From Zoogloea dura (lineage in GTDB: Bacteria > Pseudomonadota > Gammaproteobacteria > Burkholderiales > Rhodocyclaceae): DNA of 64,000 bases. The position numbers were made by a program, and so were the translations under genes. Numbering within the stretch: position 1 is the first letter of the stretch; each line of letters opens with the position of its first letter. Shown piece after piece: positions 3,376 to 61,466 of the stretch. The stretch covers positions 62,001-126,000 of the forward strand of contig NZ_JABBGA010000010.1 in NCBI RefSeq assembly GCF_012927165.1. The letters run 5' to 3'. Under the pieces are notes generated by a model. That model had not been told where the DNA came from and did no database searches. It saw only the letters and a program-made list of their open reading frames with translations.

Positions 3376-3386
3376 AAGGTCGCACC

Positions 3387-4667
3387 ATGGACAGGATAGG
3401 CAAGTACGAGATCCGCCAAAAGCTGGGCGAAGGCGCCACCAGCGAGGTCTTTCTCGGCTTCGATCCGTTCTCCCAGCGGGAGGTCGCCATCAAGCGTCTC
3501 CACGCCGACCTGCTGCGTGGCAGCACCCGGGCGGCCCTGTATCACCACCTGCTGCTCAACGAGGCCTCCCTGGCCGGCAAGCTGCAGCATCCGCATATCG
3601 CACAGATCCACGACGCCGTCATCGGCGACACGGACGCCTACGTGGTGATGGAGTACGTGCCCGGGGGCACCCTTGAGCCCTACACGCACCCGGACCGGCT
3701 GCTGAGCTTCGAGCACTTGGTCGAGATCGTCTTCAAGTGCACCCGGGCCCTCGACTACGCCTACCTGCACGGCGTCACCCACCGGGACATCAAGCCGGCC
3801 AACATCCTGCTCACCTCACCCGGCGGGCAGGACATCAAGATCTCCGACTTCGGCGCGGCGCTGTTCACTGCCAGCGAAACCACCCAGCTGGCCGGGCTCG
3901 GCTCACCGGCCTACATGTCCCCCGAGCAGGTCCGGGAGATGCCTCTCGACCACCGCACCGACATCTACTCCCTGGGCGTGGTGATGTACCAACTGCTGAC
4001 CGGACGACTGCCCTTCGAGGCCAGCTCCAACGTCAACATGATCTACCAGATCGCCCACCACACGGCCCCGCCCCCGTCCAGCCTGCGCCCCGAGATTCCA
4101 CCCGAGCTCGACGCCATCGTGCTCAAGGCCATGCACCGGGAGCCCTCCCAGCGCTTTGCCACATGGATGGAGTTTTCGCACGACCTGGCCCAGGCCTACC
4201 GCAACCGCAACCTGCTCGCCACCGGTTCCGAGCCGCCAGACAGCGCGAAGTTCGAGCGCCTGCGCGGCTTCCGCTTCTTCCGCGAATTCAGCGACATCGA
4301 GATCTGGGAGATCGTCCGCTTCGCTGAATGGCGCCTCATCCAGCCGGGCACGGTGGTCATGAAAGAAGGCGAGCCGGGCAATTATTTCTGCTTCGTGGTG
4401 GACGGAGAGCTGCGCATCGTCAAGAACGGGCACCTGCTCAACGTGCTCTCCGCTGGCGACTGTTTTGGCGAAATGGCCCTCTTTGCCGCCGGACGCGGCG
4501 CGCGCACGGCATCCGTCGAAGCCCTGCAGGAAACCCGCATCCTCACCATCCGCGCACCGGCACTGCTGCGCGCATCCAGTCTGTGCCAGATGCACTTCTA
4601 CAAGGGCTTCCTCGAAGTCCTGTCGACGCGTCTGTCACTTGCCAACAGCCGCATCGCCAATGTCTGA
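3387..4667 (+). CDS. Ser/Thr protein kinase with C-terminal cyclic nucleotide-binding domain
   Basis: Hanks-type kinase of 426 aa. The P-loop is GEGATSEV, with ATP lysine K36, catalytic HRDIKPAN (D134) and Mg-binding DFG (D154), so the catalytic residues are intact. The activation segment GSPAYMSPEQ is standard. After residue about 285 comes a cNMP-binding domain whose phosphate-binding cassette (FGEMAL ... ARTASV) keeps the Glu and Arg expected for ligand binding. There is no transmembrane or PASTA region, so it should be cytosolic and may be gated by a cyclic nucleotide. The ATG at 3387 is chosen because it begins the kinase fold directly; upstream in-frame sequence is the argH coding region. 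Function and substrate are unknown. Confidence 0.92.
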   Translation: MDRIGKYEIRQKLGEGATSEVFLGFDPFSQREVAIKRLHADLLRGSTRAALYHHLLLNEASLAGKLQHPHIAQIHDAVIGDTDAYVVMEYVPGGTLEPYTHPDRLLSFEHLVEIVFKCTRALDYAYLHGVTHRDIKPANILLTSPGGQDIKISDFGAALFTASETTQLAGLGSPAYMSPEQVREMPLDHRTDIYSLGVVMYQLLTGRLPFEASSNVNMIYQIAHHTAPPPSSLRPEIPPELDAIVLKAMHREPSQRFATWMEFSHDLAQAYRNRNLLATGSEPPDSAKFERLRGFRFFREFSDIEIWEIVRFAEWRLIQPGTVVMKEGEPGNYFCFVVDGELRIVKNGHLLNVLSAGDCFGEMALFAAGRGARTASVEALQETRILTIRAPALLRASSLCQMHFYKGFLEVLSTRLSLANSRIANV

Positions 4668-4723
4668 CCGGCCCAAACTGCCGATGATCTGTCGGATTAT
4701 TTGACACGAAGCCCAGCCCCTCC

Positions 4724-4758
4724 GCCCCCTCTCTAAAAAAGGGGGCATTTAGTTTTTT
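4724..4758 (+). terminator. Rho-independent terminator after argH-kinase
   Basis: A 6-bp GCCCCC/GGGGGC stem with an 11-nt A-rich loop is followed by ATTTAGTTTTTT. It lies 57 bp after the kinase stop codon and separates that unit from the next cluster. Confidence 0.6.
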
Positions 4759-4788
4759 ACTTTCAATGGCTTACAATAATTCGCAAAA

Positions 4789-4804
4789 AGGAACATTATT
4801 TGCT
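4789..4804 (+). promoter_or_regulatory. Candidate sigma-54 promoter for the HPr-rel-A cluster
   Basis: AGGAACATTATTTGCT matches the -24/-12 consensus TGGCACRNNNNTTGCW at 14 of 16 positions if the four N are counted as matches. The GG and GC doublets have the required 10-bp separation. It lies in an AT-rich stretch about 110 bp before the Tat-like protein start and just after a terminator. The match is by eye; no integration-host or activator sites were established. Confidence 0.45.
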
Positions 4805-4913
4805 TATAGGTAAGTAACCATAAAGCGGACCTCCGTCACAGACGTGCCACGAGGCCCCGCCTATACTGCAAATTCACGGCGCCAGTCATGGCATCAGTTC
4901 AACGAGGATCAGC

Positions 4914-5480
4914 ATGAAGCCGGAACACTCTCAAGAATCTGTCGCGCCCCTTGGCAGCGACACAGGCACGATGCCGAAAGAAAGCCGTCGCCGACTCATC
5001 CAGGGCGGCCTTGCTGGCGCTCCTCTTCTGATGGCCCTGACCAGCGTTCCGGCCTTGGCCGCCGAATGCAAGCAGCCATCCGGCTTCTCTGCTTCGGGCA
5101 ATTTCAGCCAGAACGGCACCACGGCCTGCTCGCCCAAGATGAACGGCGTGAAGTTCTGGCAGGACTTCTGCACGGCCACTCCGGCACCAACCACGCACCC
5201 GGTTGACACCAAGACCTTCTCCGGCGTTTTTGCGGCGACCACGGGCGTGACGGCCACCTTCCGCAACATCCTGATGACGTCCGGAACCCCCATCCAGAAA
5301 AAGATCGTCGCAGCCTGGCTCAGCGCCAACGCAGGCAGCTCCCTGTTCACCGCAAGCACGGCCGTCAAGATGTGGAACGACGGGATCGTCGGGGGAGCCT
5401 TCCATCCGAGCGCAACCATGCCCAGCGTGACCTGGAACGCCGCCCAGGTCGAGCTGTACCTGGACTACGTACTGGCCTGA
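4914..5480 (+). CDS. Exported protein with Tat-like signal, first gene of HPr-rel-A cluster
   Basis: A 188-aa protein of unknown function. Residues 1-23 are polar, then SRRRLIQGG and a hydrophobic stretch ending PALA-AEC resemble a twin-arginine signal peptide with cleavage near residue 50. The mature part of about 138 aa has three cysteines, including one in KFWQDFCTAT and one just after the cleavage site. The segment KKIVAAWLSANAG resembles other small exported proteins found beside HPr-rel-A genes, from memory of such loci. It starts a run of four co-directional genes. It may be the exported product or target of the modifying genes that follow, which is an inference. Confidence 0.8.
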   Translation: MKPEHSQESVAPLGSDTGTMPKESRRRLIQGGLAGAPLLMALTSVPALAAECKQPSGFSASGNFSQNGTTACSPKMNGVKFWQDFCTATPAPTTHPVDTKTFSGVFAATTGVTATFRNILMTSGTPIQKKIVAAWLSANAGSSLFTASTAVKMWNDGIVGGAFHPSATMPSVTWNAAQVELYLDYVLA

Positions 5481-5495
5481 TCACCGTAGCGAGTC

Positions 5496-5828
5496 TTGCT
5501 TTCGAACGACCATCACTACCGCGCCTGCGATGCCCTGTTTCACGGGCTTGCCGAGGTACGCTGGAAAGAAGTTGACGAAGGCTGGGTTCGTTACGACCCT
5601 GCCGCCGGTCAGACCTTCCTGATTGCTCCAATAACCCGCTTTGTTCTTGACCAGCTGGCGCATCCAGGGCGCCATCTAAGCTTCAGCCAGCTCCTCGCCT
5701 GCGTCCTGCAGGAAGAACCAGACGCCGATCCGGATGACTGCCGGCAACTCGTGGAGTTTGCCATCGAGGCCTTGATCGGGGCCCGCCTGATCCTCTCCGA
5801 GCCGAGACCCAGCCTTGCGAATCCGTGA
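5496..5828 (+). CDS. PqqD-like protein, HPr-rel-A system
   Basis: A 110-aa protein with the size and pattern of the PqqD/RRE peptide-binding fold: a strand pair containing WVRYDP, then a helical half with NxF-type spacing. It matches the PqqD-like member that precedes HprK-related kinase A in other proteobacteria. PqqD domains bind precursor peptides for modifying enzymes in RiPP pathways. The start is TTG at 5496, 15 bp after the exported-protein gene. The 3' end overlaps the kinase gene by 14 bp, indicating a tight operon. Confidence 0.75.
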   Translation: MLSNDHHYRACDALFHGLAEVRWKEVDEGWVRYDPAAGQTFLIAPITRFVLDQLAHPGRHLSFSQLLACVLQEEPDADPDDCRQLVEFAIEALIGARLILSEPRPSLANP

Positions 5829-6729
5829 CCTGTCACCCGCCGAGTTCCGCCAGCGGCTAACGGGGGACGGTATCCGCCTTGCAGCCGGCCCCTTCCATTG
5901 CCGGCTGCAAAGTGGCATTCCCGATATTGCCCACGAGCTAGCCCGCCTTTACGCCCATCACACGCTGGTCGGCAGCCAGGACTTCACGGATTTCCATGTC
6001 TCCGTGCAACCTGGCCGGGGGCTGCGTCGGTGGCTCGCCCCCCAGGCCCGCTTCGTGGTCGATGCCGTCGAGCCCTTCACGCCCCTCCCCCGCAACCAGG
6101 CGCTGCCAATGCTGGAGTGGGGGCTGAACTGGTGCATCACCGCCTACAGCCATCACATTCTCGTCATCCACGCCGCTTCAGTGGCCCGGGATGGACGCGC
6201 AGCAATCCTGCCGGCCCCGCCGGGCTCGGGCAAGAGCACCCTGTGCGCCGCCCTGGTCAACCGCGGCTGGCGACTGCTGTCCGACGAGCTGACCCTGATC
6301 CGCCTCGACACAGGGCAGATCATGGGCCTCGCCCGACCGGTCAATCTCAAGAATGCCTCGATCGACATCATCCGCGCGTATGCGCCGGATGCATTCCTGA
6401 CCCGCCCCGTCCTCGACACCACCAAAGGCACGGTGGCCCTGATGGCACCCAGCCAGACCAGCGTGGAAGCCGTCGACGAATGGGCCGACCCGGCCTGGAT
6501 GATTCTGCCCCGCTACCGGGCTGGCGCCGAGGCCGAACTCAGCCCGATGGGAAGCGGCACGGCCTTCCTGCAGCTTGCCGACAACGCGATGAACTACCAC
6601 GTCATGGGTTCGCGCGGCTTCGACACGGTGGGGCGACTCGTCGACCGTTGCCGCAACTACCGCTTCGAATACAGCCGGCTCGACGACGCCATTGCCGTTT
6701 TCGACCGCCTCGCCAGCGGCGCTGCCTGA
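5815..6729 (+). CDS. HprK-related kinase A
   Basis: A 304-aa homologue of the C-terminal catalytic domain of HPr kinase/phosphorylase. The P-loop PPGSGKST is at residues 135-142, preceded by the strand HHILVIHAASV and followed by LLSDELTLI, which fits the acidic Walker B-like region of HprK. It lacks the N-terminal regulatory domain of true HprK, and no ptsH gene is adjacent, so HPr is unlikely to be its substrate. The start is TTG at 5815, inside the preceding gene. The stop overlaps the next start by one base (TGATG). Confidence 0.85.
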   Translation: MRIRDLSPAEFRQRLTGDGIRLAAGPFHCRLQSGIPDIAHELARLYAHHTLVGSQDFTDFHVSVQPGRGLRRWLAPQARFVVDAVEPFTPLPRNQALPMLEWGLNWCITAYSHHILVIHAASVARDGRAAILPAPPGSGKSTLCAALVNRGWRLLSDELTLIRLDTGQIMGLARPVNLKNASIDIIRAYAPDAFLTRPVLDTTKGTVALMAPSQTSVEAVDEWADPAWMILPRYRAGAEAELSPMGSGTAFLQLADNAMNYHVMGSRGFDTVGRLVDRCRNYRFEYSRLDDAIAVFDRLASGAA

Positions 6730-7856
6730 TGAACCTGCTCCTCAATACCTACCGCCGCCCCGGCTCGATAGGCCTGCTGGACGCCGGCCAGTGGGATCTG
6801 CTGGTACGCCAGGCCCGCCATGCCAATCTGCTTGGGCGCCTCTTCCTGCGCCTGCAGGCCGCCGGTGTCGAAGACAGGATTCCCGAGCGTCCCCACAACC
6901 ACCTGCTCTCCGGCGCGGTGATGGCGGGCGAGCAGCGCCACGCGATCCGTCGCGAAGCCCGCTACCTGCAAGAAGCGCTCGAGCCTGCCGGCATCCCGGT
7001 GATCCTCCTCAAGGGCGCGGCCTATGTGGCTGCCGAGCTGCCCGCCGCCCAGGGCCGGCTCTTCTCGGACGTGGACATCCTGCTGCCCAGGGCCCGCCTC
7101 GCCGACGCCGAATCCGCACTGCAGCTCAAGGGCTGGGTGAGCACCGCCACCGACGCCTATGACCAGCGCTACTACCGCCAGTGGATGCACGAGCTCCCTG
7201 CAATGCGCCACGTCTTTCGCGGTTCAGCCCTGGATGTGCATCACACCATCCTGCCGCCGACCTCCCGGCTCAAACCCGATGCCAGCCTGCTCATGGATGC
7301 CAGCGTCGAGCTGGGCAAGGACCTGCCGGGCATTCGCACCCTATCCCTGCCCGATCTCATCCTGCACAGCGCCTGCCACCTCTTCCACGAGGGCGAGCCC
7401 AACAACCTGCTGCGCGACCTGACCGATCTGGACCTGCTGCTGCGCCATCTCGCCCGGGACGATGCGGCTTGGGACGAACTGCTCGAACGTGCCGGACTTC
7501 TACAGCTGGACGCCCCCCTGCGCCTCGCATTGCGCTACTGCCACAGCCTGCTCGAAACCCCCTTGCCGAGCCACGTGCAGACCCGCACGGGCTGCCTCCT
7601 CGGCGGCGACTGGGTTCAACGCCTGCGCGACGCCATGTACGCCCGCGTGCTGCGCCCTCAACACCCCAGCACTGCCGACGCACTGACGCCCCTCGCCCGC
7701 CGGGCTCTGTACATCCGCGCCCACTGGCTGCGCATGCCGCCCCAGCTGCTTGCCTATCACCTGGCCCACAAGGCCATCTTCCCCGCCAGGCAGGACACCC
7801 ACCCCCTGTCCACCGAGAAGATCGAGCTTGCGACAGGCGAAAAAAAAGCGGCCTGA
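6729..7856 (+). CDS. Nucleotidyltransferase family protein, HPr-rel-A associated
   Basis: A 375-aa protein with the core of the large, divergent nucleotidyltransferase family that accompanies HprK-related kinases. VILLKGAAYV precedes the metal-binding strand LFSDVDILLP (two aspartates, at about residues 117-119). A helical C-terminal half includes a His-rich DLILHSACHLFHEGE region. The ATG at 6729 overlaps the kinase stop codon, so it is translationally coupled. Target unknown; transfer of a nucleotide or sugar-phosphate to the cluster's peptide or protein is plausible but unproven. Confidence 0.85.
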   Translation: MNLLLNTYRRPGSIGLLDAGQWDLLVRQARHANLLGRLFLRLQAAGVEDRIPERPHNHLLSGAVMAGEQRHAIRREARYLQEALEPAGIPVILLKGAAYVAAELPAAQGRLFSDVDILLPRARLADAESALQLKGWVSTATDAYDQRYYRQWMHELPAMRHVFRGSALDVHHTILPPTSRLKPDASLLMDASVELGKDLPGIRTLSLPDLILHSACHLFHEGEPNNLLRDLTDLDLLLRHLARDDAAWDELLERAGLLQLDAPLRLALRYCHSLLETPLPSHVQTRTGCLLGGDWVQRLRDAMYARVLRPQHPSTADALTPLARRALYIRAHWLRMPPQLLAYHLAHKAIFPARQDTHPLSTEKIELATGEKKAA

Positions 7857-7868
7857 GCCGCTTTTTTT
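7841..7868. terminator. Bidirectional terminator
   Basis: AAAAAAAGCGGC / GCCGCTTTTTTT flank a CTGA loop, giving a long perfect stem with an A-run on one side and a T-run on the other. It lies between the convergent nucleotidyltransferase gene and grxD and can stop transcription from both. Confidence 0.9.
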
Positions 7869-7883
7869 GGACCAACCACCTCT

Positions 7884-8201
7884 TCAGGCCTGGACTTCGT
7901 CGAGCAGCTTCTTCAGCTCGCCCGAGTCGAACATCTCTTTCATGATGTCCGAACCACCGATGAACTCACCCTTCACGTAGAGCTGGGGAATGGTCGGCCA
8001 GTTTGCGTATTCCTTGATGCCCTGGCGGATGTCTTCGTTCATCAGCACATCCACGGCCAGGTAGCTTTGCACGCCACAGGCCTTGAGGATCTGGGAGGCC
8101 ATGGAAGAGAAACCGCAGCGGGGCATGGCCGGGGAACCCTTCATGTAGAGCACGACCGGGTTGGTGGTGACTTGTTCTTGAATGACTTTCTGGACGTCCA
8201 T
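7884..8201 (-). CDS. grxD: Monothiol glutaredoxin, Grx4 family
   Basis: A 105-aa CGFS-type glutaredoxin with active-site C29 in PRCGFS, and the WPTIPQLYV and GGSDI glutathione-binding motifs. This family binds a [2Fe-2S] cluster with glutathione and hands it on in iron-sulfur assembly. It ends the hemA-prfA-prmC-grxD run on the minus strand, 63 bp after prmC, and stops just before a shared terminator. Full length. Confidence 0.96.
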   Translation of the reverse strand: MDVQKVIQEQVTTNPVVLYMKGSPAMPRCGFSSMASQILKACGVQSYLAVDVLMNEDIRQGIKEYANWPTIPQLYVKGEFIGGSDIMKEMFDSGELKKLLDEVQA

Positions 8202-60202: not shown

Positions 60203-60596
60203 GAAAGACTCCGGAGATTCCTAGTTTTATGAGGATGAATGACACATACGCTGGCGCATCAGAATCGAGGCCAGCCTTGACGCGGATGATAGCGCCTCAA
60301 GGCTGCCAGGGGTTTGCACGCACAGGCGTCCCGTCCCAGCCCTCAGGGCCAGCCGCAGCCAGCCTTTCACACAGGCGTCTACACCATGACGAGCGTGCGT
60401 CGGCCAGTTCACCGGCATGTCGAATTTTTTTACACATCCTTGCACTCAAGTCTTCAATGAAATATTTTCCATAAAAAAAACATGAACTTACAGACGTAAA
60501 AATAGCTGGCACAGGACGTGCTAGATGGTTAGCGCGTCTTACTGCTGGCTCACAGCAACAGTCTGTTAGCAACCTACATCTGCAAAAGGAAATAAA
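60203..60596. other. Divergent region between argJ and PEP-CTERM gene (394 bp)
   Basis: No gene supported. The part near argJ is mixed GC; from 60430 on it is strongly AT-rich (including a run of eight A near 60473), as expected for a promoter region. A sigma-54-like element is listed separately. Confidence 0.5.
60507..60522 (+). promoter_or_regulatory. Sigma-54 promoter for the PEP-CTERM gene
   Basis: TGGCACAGGACGTGCT matches TGGCACRNNNNTTGCW at all but one defined position, with GG and GC 10 bp apart. The start codon is 74 bp downstream, leaving a leader of about 60 nt. PEP-CTERM genes in related floc-forming bacteria are known to depend on RpoN and the PrsK/PrsR system. Confidence 0.75.
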
Positions 60597-61466
60597 ATGA
60601 AACTCTCCAAGATTGCTCTGGCCACTGCTGCTACGCTGCTCAGCGGTGCCGCCTTCGCCGATTTCGTTCCGCTGCCCGTCGGCGTTGGCATCCTCGAAGA
60701 TGACAACATCGAGTACGTTCTGGACGCTCAAGGCAACTTCAAGACCAGCGGCACCCTGGCCGTTGGCGACCGTCTGCGCGCTGTCGTGAAGTTCAGCAAC
60801 GTCCTGAACCCCGACAACTCCGTCTTTACCGCCCTCGGCGCCCCCGGCCTTGAGCTGACCGGCATCTCCGAAATCGAAGTGAAGTCGATCAACGCGGTTA
60901 CCGGCCTCTACACCTTCGGCACCTCCGCCGCCTTCACTTCCGTGTATGGCGCCGGCGCCATGGCCGCCATGTTCGCCCAGACCACCGGCGACTTCTTCAC
61001 CTCCTGCAACGGCACCAGCATCGCTGCCTGCGAAACCGCCGCCACCAACGGTACCAAGTGGGCTGTTGCCGGCCTGTCGGATGCGGACGACTTCTGGGTT
61101 GCCAGCAGCGCCATCGCCGGCGTTCCCCTGAACACCATCGACGTCAGCACCCTGTCCGGCTCCGCCGCGACCACCAAGGTTGCCGTGGCCAACTTTGCCC
61201 TGTCCATCCTGTACAACGGCACTGGCTACGAGTTCAACGAACAGACCTCGGCCCTGTCCCCGTTCTACACCGTTGGCGGCGATGGCAAGACCGACGTTAT
61301 CGGCTCCGGTGACATTCTCGGTGGTCAAGGCCTCGCCAACAACTACGTTGCTCGCAGCGACTTCGACTTCCAGGTGAGCCGCGTGCCGGAACCCACCAGC
61401 ATGTCCCTGATCGGCCTCGGCCTGCTGGGCCTGGGCGCTCTGTCCCGCAAGCGCAAGGCTTCCTGA
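60597..61466 (+). CDS. PEP-CTERM sorting domain protein
   Basis: A 289-aa secreted protein. The signal peptide is about 1-21 (LLSGAAFA-D). The C-terminal VPEPTSMSLIGLGLLGLGALSRKRKAS is a full PEP-CTERM tripartite signal (PEP motif, helix, basic tail) for exosortase-dependent surface sorting. The body contains one cysteine pair (SCNGTSIAAC) and is rich in Gly, Ala, Thr and Ser. Monocistronic, with its own sigma-54-like promoter and strong terminator. Probable surface or matrix protein; precise role unknown. Confidence 0.93.
   Translation: MKLSKIALATAATLLSGAAFADFVPLPVGVGILEDDNIEYVLDAQGNFKTSGTLAVGDRLRAVVKFSNVLNPDNSVFTALGAPGLELTGISEIEVKSINAVTGLYTFGTSAAFTSVYGAGAMAAMFAQTTGDFFTSCNGTSIAACETAATNGTKWAVAGLSDADDFWVASSAIAGVPLNTIDVSTLSGSAATTKVAVANFALSILYNGTGYEFNEQTSALSPFYTVGGDGKTDVIGSGDILGGQGLANNYVARSDFDFQVSRVPEPTSMSLIGLGLLGLGALSRKRKAS

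Follow-up and report, generated by a model that had tools for sequence, protein, structure and literature searches.

Within a 64,000-nucleotide (nt) stretch of the Zoogloea dura genome (assembly GCF_012927165.1, contig NZ_JABBGA010000010.1, positions 62,001 to 126,000 of the forward strand; hereafter the window), four same-strand genes at 4914-7856 form one operon encoding an exported companion (EXP), a PqqD-like protein, an HprK-related kinase A (HprK_rel_A) and an NTP_transf_5 nucleotidyltransferase-like enzyme (NTase). Here we describe the gene order of this cassette, its co-occurrence across genomes, the common leader and conserved serines of EXP, the intact active-site motifs of the enzymes, and a promoter with its upstream dyad. 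We propose, giving the idea an even chance of being right, that the operon is a protein-modification cassette resembling those of ribosomally synthesized and post-translationally modified peptides (RiPPs), with EXP as its one dedicated substrate. A cassette previously represented here by family models thus becomes a hypothesis with a named substrate, residues and promoter.

All four genes lie on the + strand. EXP (4914..5480; 188 amino acids), the proposed substrate, was delineated as an open reading frame (ORF) and through profile searches, and is followed after 15 nt by the gene for the PqqD-like protein (5496..5828; TTG start), the proposed leader-binding RiPP recognition element (RRE). The latter gene overlaps that of the kinase (5815..6729; TTG start) by 14 nt, which in turn shares 1 nt with the NTase gene (6729..7856), whose product carries a DxD motif at D114 and D116. 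The kinase scores 382.2 bits with TIGR04352 (cut-off 200), which assigns it to the HPr-rel-A system, and the NTase scores 182 bits with PF14907 (cut-off 31.2), so that the NTP_transf_5 neighbour of an HPr-rel-A kinase is present as well. The PqqD-like protein of the window alone falls under the curated cut-offs (21.6 vs 35 bits for TIGR04353; 14.5 vs 23.4 bits for PF05402), and its identity therefore needs family context: every one of the 43 positional homologues in the alignment is matched by TIGR04353 with an E-value of at most 0.01, the lowest being 1.1e-21. Window EXP has no match at E<=1 in the Pfam or NCBIfam libraries. The initial annotation of this DNA, made from the letters and their translations, had named all four genes and their tight linkage, rightly in each case.

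In the kinase, H119, the Walker A motif PGSGKST (residues 136-142; 6220..6240, + strand; G137, G139, K140, S141 and T142) and S156-D157-E158 are invariant among 30 sequences, and these residues match catalytic positions of HprK. A sequence search with the kinase returned HprK as first match, albeit weakly (E 0.016), while a Foldseek search with its structural model returned phosphoenolpyruvate carboxykinase (PEPCK; best E 3.6e-7) and HprK (best E 3.1e-4), which belong to one superfamily. In the GRxFxDxD motif of the NTase, the glycine, the arginine and both aspartates are each kept in at least 90% of 73 sequences.

The EXP leader (residues 19-49; 4968..5060, + strand), with the pattern RRxL/F...PVxLTLxSxPVxA, shows a mean column identity of 50% over its 31 residues in 70 aligned sequences (alignment A2), against 20% for EXP (47 sequences) and 60% for the kinase (30 sequences), a comparison that is rough because the sequence sets differ. 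The leader is far better conserved than the cargo, which varies; ordinary twin-arginine translocation (Tat) leaders are less constrained in their hydrophobic part. The two arginines of the pair are kept in 70 and 72 of 73 rows, respectively, and in Sphingomonas-like and several other lineages, where the cargo looks unrelated, the RR leader is still recognisable and usually followed by Ser-x3/4-Cys (read by eye). Across 76 genomes, at least seven of which gave rows to the profile, all 39 leader matches at E<=1e-4 adjoin the kinase; those above 1e-4 and away from it are in longer ORFs and, as read from the match table, mostly span the RR portion of the profile. The 26 genomes that are XrtA-positive and kinase-negative yielded no leader match at E<=1e-4 (best 2.2e-4).

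Just after the leader, Ser56 and Ser61 (codons Ser56 to Ser61 at 5079..5096, + strand), the proposed modification sites, are invariant (47/47) in alignment A1, the best of the other Ser/Thr columns in the mature part reaching 38, 37 and 36 of 47. A1 comprises 47 of 63 retained EXPs (63 of 73 having been kept earlier) and leaves out the longest and most divergent, so that this invariance does not cover them. In the wider 73-row alignment Ser56 is found in 67 rows, and it is the firmer candidate of the two. An AlphaFold2 model of EXP has a predicted local distance difference test score (pLDDT) of 52-61 for each ten-residue block as far as residue 70 (54-56 at the two serines) and 84-97 from residue 71 on, and the serine segment is probably disordered; conservation in such a stretch by the cleavage site would fit a modification or recognition site. 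A fold search with the model found nothing at E<=0.001 in either PDB or BFVD and therefore suggested no function. Searches of the 47 EXPs against Pfam and NCBIfam returned only generic TAT and chance matches. Three other ideas were discarded: a C-terminal target serine by analogy with paeninodin (among the EXP tails listed, the last residue varies widely), EXP as a PEP-CTERM protein (no TIGR02595 C-terminal domain match), and a fixed Cys-x3-Ser motif (45 of 47 have that cysteine, with a spacing of 3 in 25 and otherwise of 1, 2, 4, 6 or 8).

The association of EXP with the kinase was followed in 111 fetched loci plus the window, searched with profiles built in this analysis and dereplicated to one locus per 85%-identity kinase group. 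The resulting 75 loci, a sample seeded from the window kinase and biased to its relatives, span Beta-, Gamma- and Alphaproteobacteria and two Planctomycetes (L, G, C and f numbers below are our handles for loci, genomes, contigs and lineages). All four genes are on the kinase strand in 66 loci and EXP in 69, and the order EXP-PqqD-HprK-NTase, close together, is found in 64. The initial annotation had proposed looking for such a conserved order and for a co-varying exported gene, and had named as contrary evidence the absence of that gene from homologous clusters or a kinase and NTase clustering with unrelated genes in relatives. Neither was seen: the kinase strand lacked an EXP match in six loci, and kinase and NTase stand together in 72.

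A census of 300 genomes of the order (Burkholderiales) gave 50 with the kinase over cut-off, 46 with EXP and 44 with both (Fisher 1.2e-43). Judged by position, EXP lies no more than 3 kb from a same-strand kinase in 43 genomes, a number that rises to 46 when leader matches are counted as well; in six of these the match is downstream of the kinase. Two (L203, L204) of the four kinase-positive genomes left over show a leader protein when searched alone, G153 and G245 lying outside that look. Five EXP matches cover only the leader (G040, G050, G098, G142, G192). The two EXP matches without a kinase (G143, G219) are partial and lie in leaderless ORFs of more than 1000 residues, and G102, one of the 44 genomes with both, owes its count solely to an unlinked EXP-domain match of this kind. 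The C-terminal EXP domain (SPGYWKNH-like) occurs more generally inside leaderless ORFs of 760-2888 residues (G143:C33, G219:C43, G652:C23, G123:C22, G102:C65), and is perhaps a wider extracellular module that has no family model.

A phylum sample of 398 genomes, for which the EXP profile is weak, held 61 genomes with the kinase over cut-off and 37 with EXP matches, 33 being shared and four kinase-negative; not all shared cases are adjacent, the two genes being on different contigs in G414, G455 and G586 and on different strands in G467. In addition, 20 regions were drawn from the 34 kinase-positive genomes that lack a match to the EXP profile. Of these regions 17 contain an RR-leader protein, which the profile picked out in 12 (with E-values as high as 0.033, the set being small) and reading by eye in five. 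At closer range, the window kinase is most similar to other Zoogloea kinases (92-93% identical), with a kinase match in 15 of 23 genomes of a genus sample; the source genome measures 5.83 Mb. A plasmid of Vibrio alfacsensis carries a cassette (L205, 3022-6089) with an EXP-like leader protein bearing an SGNxS segment, and with no PqqD-like gene annotated or matched.

The proposed mechanism borrows from lasso peptides, whose B1 proteins are PqqD-like leader binders and whose tailoring kinases resemble HprK. According to PMC9266682, PadeK and PsmK phosphorylate a precursor serine in lasso peptides (paeninodin, pseudomycoidin), and hexose attachment to this phosphoserine requires the nucleotidyltransferase homologue PsmN. 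A plasmid locus of Deinococcus psychrotolerans (L206, L208), annotated with a lasso B2 protein, encodes a PqqD-like protein, a kinase-like P-loop protein and a PF14907-B2 fusion. Its PF14907 domain is 33% identical to the cassette NTase over 155 residues; the kinase profile matches a 181-residue part of the P-loop protein (E 2.5e-6, 52 P-loop columns only) and the PqqD profile matches the PqqD-like protein (E 1.2e-5), both as single-comparison E-values. The same locus has a 63-residue ORF that could be a precursor, and no lasso cyclase among the annotated genes shown. On the strength of the lasso chemistry and the Deinococcus locus we therefore propose a leader-guided phosphorylation, then a transfer to the phosphoserine before export. 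The PqqD-like protein, with its RRE-type fold, would bind the conserved EXP leader in the cytoplasm, HprK_rel_A would phosphorylate a serine just after it (Ser56 and/or Ser61 in window EXP), and the NTP_transf_5 enzyme would transfer a sugar or nucleotidyl group to the phosphoserine or onto the same segment. Modified EXP would then be exported, probably via Tat with leader removal, and would be a cell-surface or matrix protein made alongside PEP-CTERM proteins under PrsK/PrsR and RpoN. We infer each of these elements, from leader binding, phosphorylation and second transfer to Tat export and matrix location.

Several points weigh against this proposal. Modification of EXP is a prediction; operon membership explains co-occurrence without any substrate relation, and the conserved serines could serve export, cleavage or folding. 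The Ser61 column depends on the alignment (12 Ser and 50 gaps in the 73-row version, with 58 Ser in the next column), and the Pfam TAT model matches only 2 of 47 EXPs. In the set of 75 loci, the kinase strand showed no EXP in six, some of which are truncated by contig ends (L068, L087, L093, L109, L025, L026), no PqqD-like gene in L069, L023 and L026, and no NTase in L083, L087 and L093; three of the 20 additional regions (L189, L194, L196) showed no leader protein. The order census is not fully independent, as at least six of its 46 EXP-positive genomes (G000, G049, G055, G208, G210, G321) gave rows to the EXP profile and these six plus G050 to the leader profile, and its negatives are not exhaustive because the first pass scored only some candidates per genome. 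Finally, as PMC9266682 also notes, the hexoses of the PsmN system might be added by an E. coli enzyme once nucleotidylation has taken place.

Upstream of the operon lies a sigma-54-like -24/-12 element (AGGAACATTATTTGCT; 4789..4804, + strand), scoring 10.4 bits with a consensus matrix. It is separated by 82 nt, with the elements as delimited here, from an enhancer-like dyad (TGTCGGATTATTTGACA; 4690..4706, + strand), a TGTC-N9-GACA variant and candidate PrsR site that exactly matches TGTCGNNNNNNYTKACA. The promoter scan listed no sigma-70-like site in 4600-7950. The initial annotation had already pointed to a -24/-12 element, and comparison bears this out: sigma-54-like sites of at least 8 bits occur upstream of EXP in 50 of 73 cases, the reverse strand giving 9 and shuffled sequences 6.7. 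A less favourable control, the upstream regions of 392 other predicted genes (including any cassette genes, which were not purged), gave 102/392 vs 49/70 EXP regions at 8 bits, and 30/392 vs 27/70 at 12 bits. The dyad TGTC-N9-TACA is present in 26 of 50 EXP upstream regions (shuffle maxima 3-4), and is followed 25-110 nt on by a sigma-54 site in 28/70 EXP regions vs 4/392 controls, a count outside which the window dyad, ending in GACA, falls.

Exact matches to TGTCGNNNNNNYTKACA number 11 in the genome, including the window dyad, and matches to the reversed pattern four. Four of the other ten, one of them in this window, precede genes that pass the PEP-CTERM domain cut-off; no PEP-CTERM domain gene was found at L182, L183 or L184 (the last reaching the locus end), and L178, L180 and L181 lay outside this test. 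A PEP-CTERM gene of the window (60597-61466) resembles the floc protein PepA at 48.5 bits, under the cut-off of 80, and has upstream of it the dyad pattern (60418-60434) and, 72 nt further, a sigma-54-like site (TGGCACAGGACGTGCT; 15.2 bits). Haft and colleagues (PMC1569441) describe for proteobacterial PEP-CTERM genes a two-part upstream site, in which a motif containing TTTACA stands 32-92 nt (mean 62.8) ahead of a sigma-54 motif; by profile, the site was matched to PrsR. In another floc former, a PEP-CTERM gene is reported to depend on RpoN (PMC9850573). As sequence motifs, the sigma-54 site and upstream enhancer motif support a predicted PrsR/RpoN regulon for the operon.

XrtA, which sorts PEP-CTERM proteins, and PrsR are both over cut-off in the source genome. 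Within the order, XrtA is over cut-off in 47/50 kinase-positive genomes vs 26/250 others, and PrsT, PrsR or XrtA-ATPase homologues (thresholds set by us) occur in the fetched flanks (<=8 kb) of 23/63 loci. Strict dependence on XrtA was ruled out, since outside the order it is over cut-off in only 19/55 kinase-positive genomes: 7/7 in f53, 12/12 in f85 and f118, and 0/36 elsewhere (six of these 36 have weaker matches, and several are incomplete). It is also over cut-off in 0/25 chosen genomes without a kinase match outside the order, three of which show weak matches. As the link is partial beyond the order, we treat XrtA as a frequent companion and not as part of the cassette. The initial suggestion that the cluster might have its own regulon, possibly that of PEP-CTERM genes, is supported in that the dyad pattern precedes such genes and in that XrtA accompanies the kinase in the order and some other lineages, but not in all. 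Two genes located after the NTase, in genomes in which no XrtA was detected (L196, 3359-4798; L200, 3-1586), both cut by the locus end, match the XrtA/PEP-CTERM amidotransferase model at 623.8 and 719.4 bits, under its cut-off of 816.9.

EXP might also be merely a co-regulated matrix protein, with the kinase, the PqqD-like protein and the NTase modifying another substrate, e.g. a lipid or sugar carrier for exopolysaccharide. We consider this unlikely: the XrtA distribution and the PrsT, PrsR and XrtA-ATPase homologues in the flanks speak for it, whereas PqqD relatives bind peptides, the EXP leader is far better kept than its cargo, and strong leader matches are confined to cassette neighbours. 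Quite unlikely, in our judgement, is an export checkpoint: the PqqD-like protein, together with a reversible phosphorylation of serine, would keep EXP cytoplasmic until folded or needed and leave no lasting mark. HprK relatives can be both kinase and phosphorylase, Tat substrates often have dedicated chaperones, and the kinase model matches PEPCK and HprK; such a checkpoint, however, would give the NTase, which shares the strand of the kinase in 72/75 loci, nothing to do. The same holds for the tetratricopeptide repeat (TPR)-sulfotransferase whose gene lies between HprK_rel_A and NTase in two of seven inspected regions, both from other lineages (L197, 3381-5624; L202, 1192-2904), an arrangement that suits a modification island. 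That EXP is a precursor giving rise to a small modified peptide by excision and release of its N-terminal Ser/Cys segment seems very unlikely, for although a conserved leader, a variable core, an RRE-like partner and neighbouring Ser and Cys of varying spacing after the leader would suit it, the operon genes include no protease or cyclase match and residues 71-188 form a confident domain needless for a bare peptide.

If EXP is indeed the dedicated substrate, RiPP-type leader recognition would be used to modify full-size exported proteins, adding an enzymatic step to matrix building by floc- and biofilm-forming bacteria. More tentatively, and with some doubt on our part, we suggest that RiPP machinery has been uncoupled from peptide natural products and dedicated to an exported protein of the biofilm matrix, on which it would place a phosphate-linked sugar or nucleotide on a serine by the signal peptide before export, perhaps joining EXP to the exopolysaccharide of the same regulon. 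The arrangement and regulation drawn in the initial annotation are supported, its modifying role staying a matter of interpretation.

Around the operon, a Ser/Thr protein kinase with a cyclic-nucleotide-binding domain is encoded directly 5' on the same strand (3378-4667). The initial annotation placed a terminator ahead of the cluster. A terminator-like hairpin lies 3' of this kinase gene (4727..4745, + strand), between the dyad and the -24/-12 element, and is weak, the region containing three such hairpins vs 1.8 expected. At the operon end a hairpin with a T-run (7848..7868, + strand) was read by eye and is absent from the program's terminator list.

Compared with known systems, the operon resembles the HPr-rel-A system (NCBIfam TIGR04352, HprK_rel_A; TIGR04353, PqqD_rel_X) in its kinase over cut-off and in its PqqD-like and NTase neighbours. 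Those model names cover the kinase and the PqqD protein, and the exported partner, leader, conserved serines and RpoN-type promoter are added here; in the paper library searched we found no mention of HPr-rel-A, HprK-related kinase, PqqD_rel_X, TIGR04352 or HprK_rel_A (TIGR04353 was not among the terms searched). With the PEP-CTERM/XrtA regulon (PrsK, PrsR, PrsT) it shares a sigma-54 site and an upstream motif, at a spacing within the range given in PMC1569441, whereas EXP itself differs from PEP-CTERM proteins in lacking a PEP-CTERM match and having a twin-arginine-like leader. With lasso tailoring (PadeK, and PsmK/PsmN; PMC9266682) it has in common a kinase and a nucleotidyltransferase homologue that act there, and would act here, on a leader-bearing precursor. 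It differs in that profile searches of Pfam and NCBIfam found no lasso cyclase or B2 protease among the operon genes, that EXP, at 188 residues, is an exported protein containing a folded domain, and that the proposed serines follow the leader instead of standing at the protein end. We propose that the cassette, while not a lasso cluster, would work like a lasso tailoring module.

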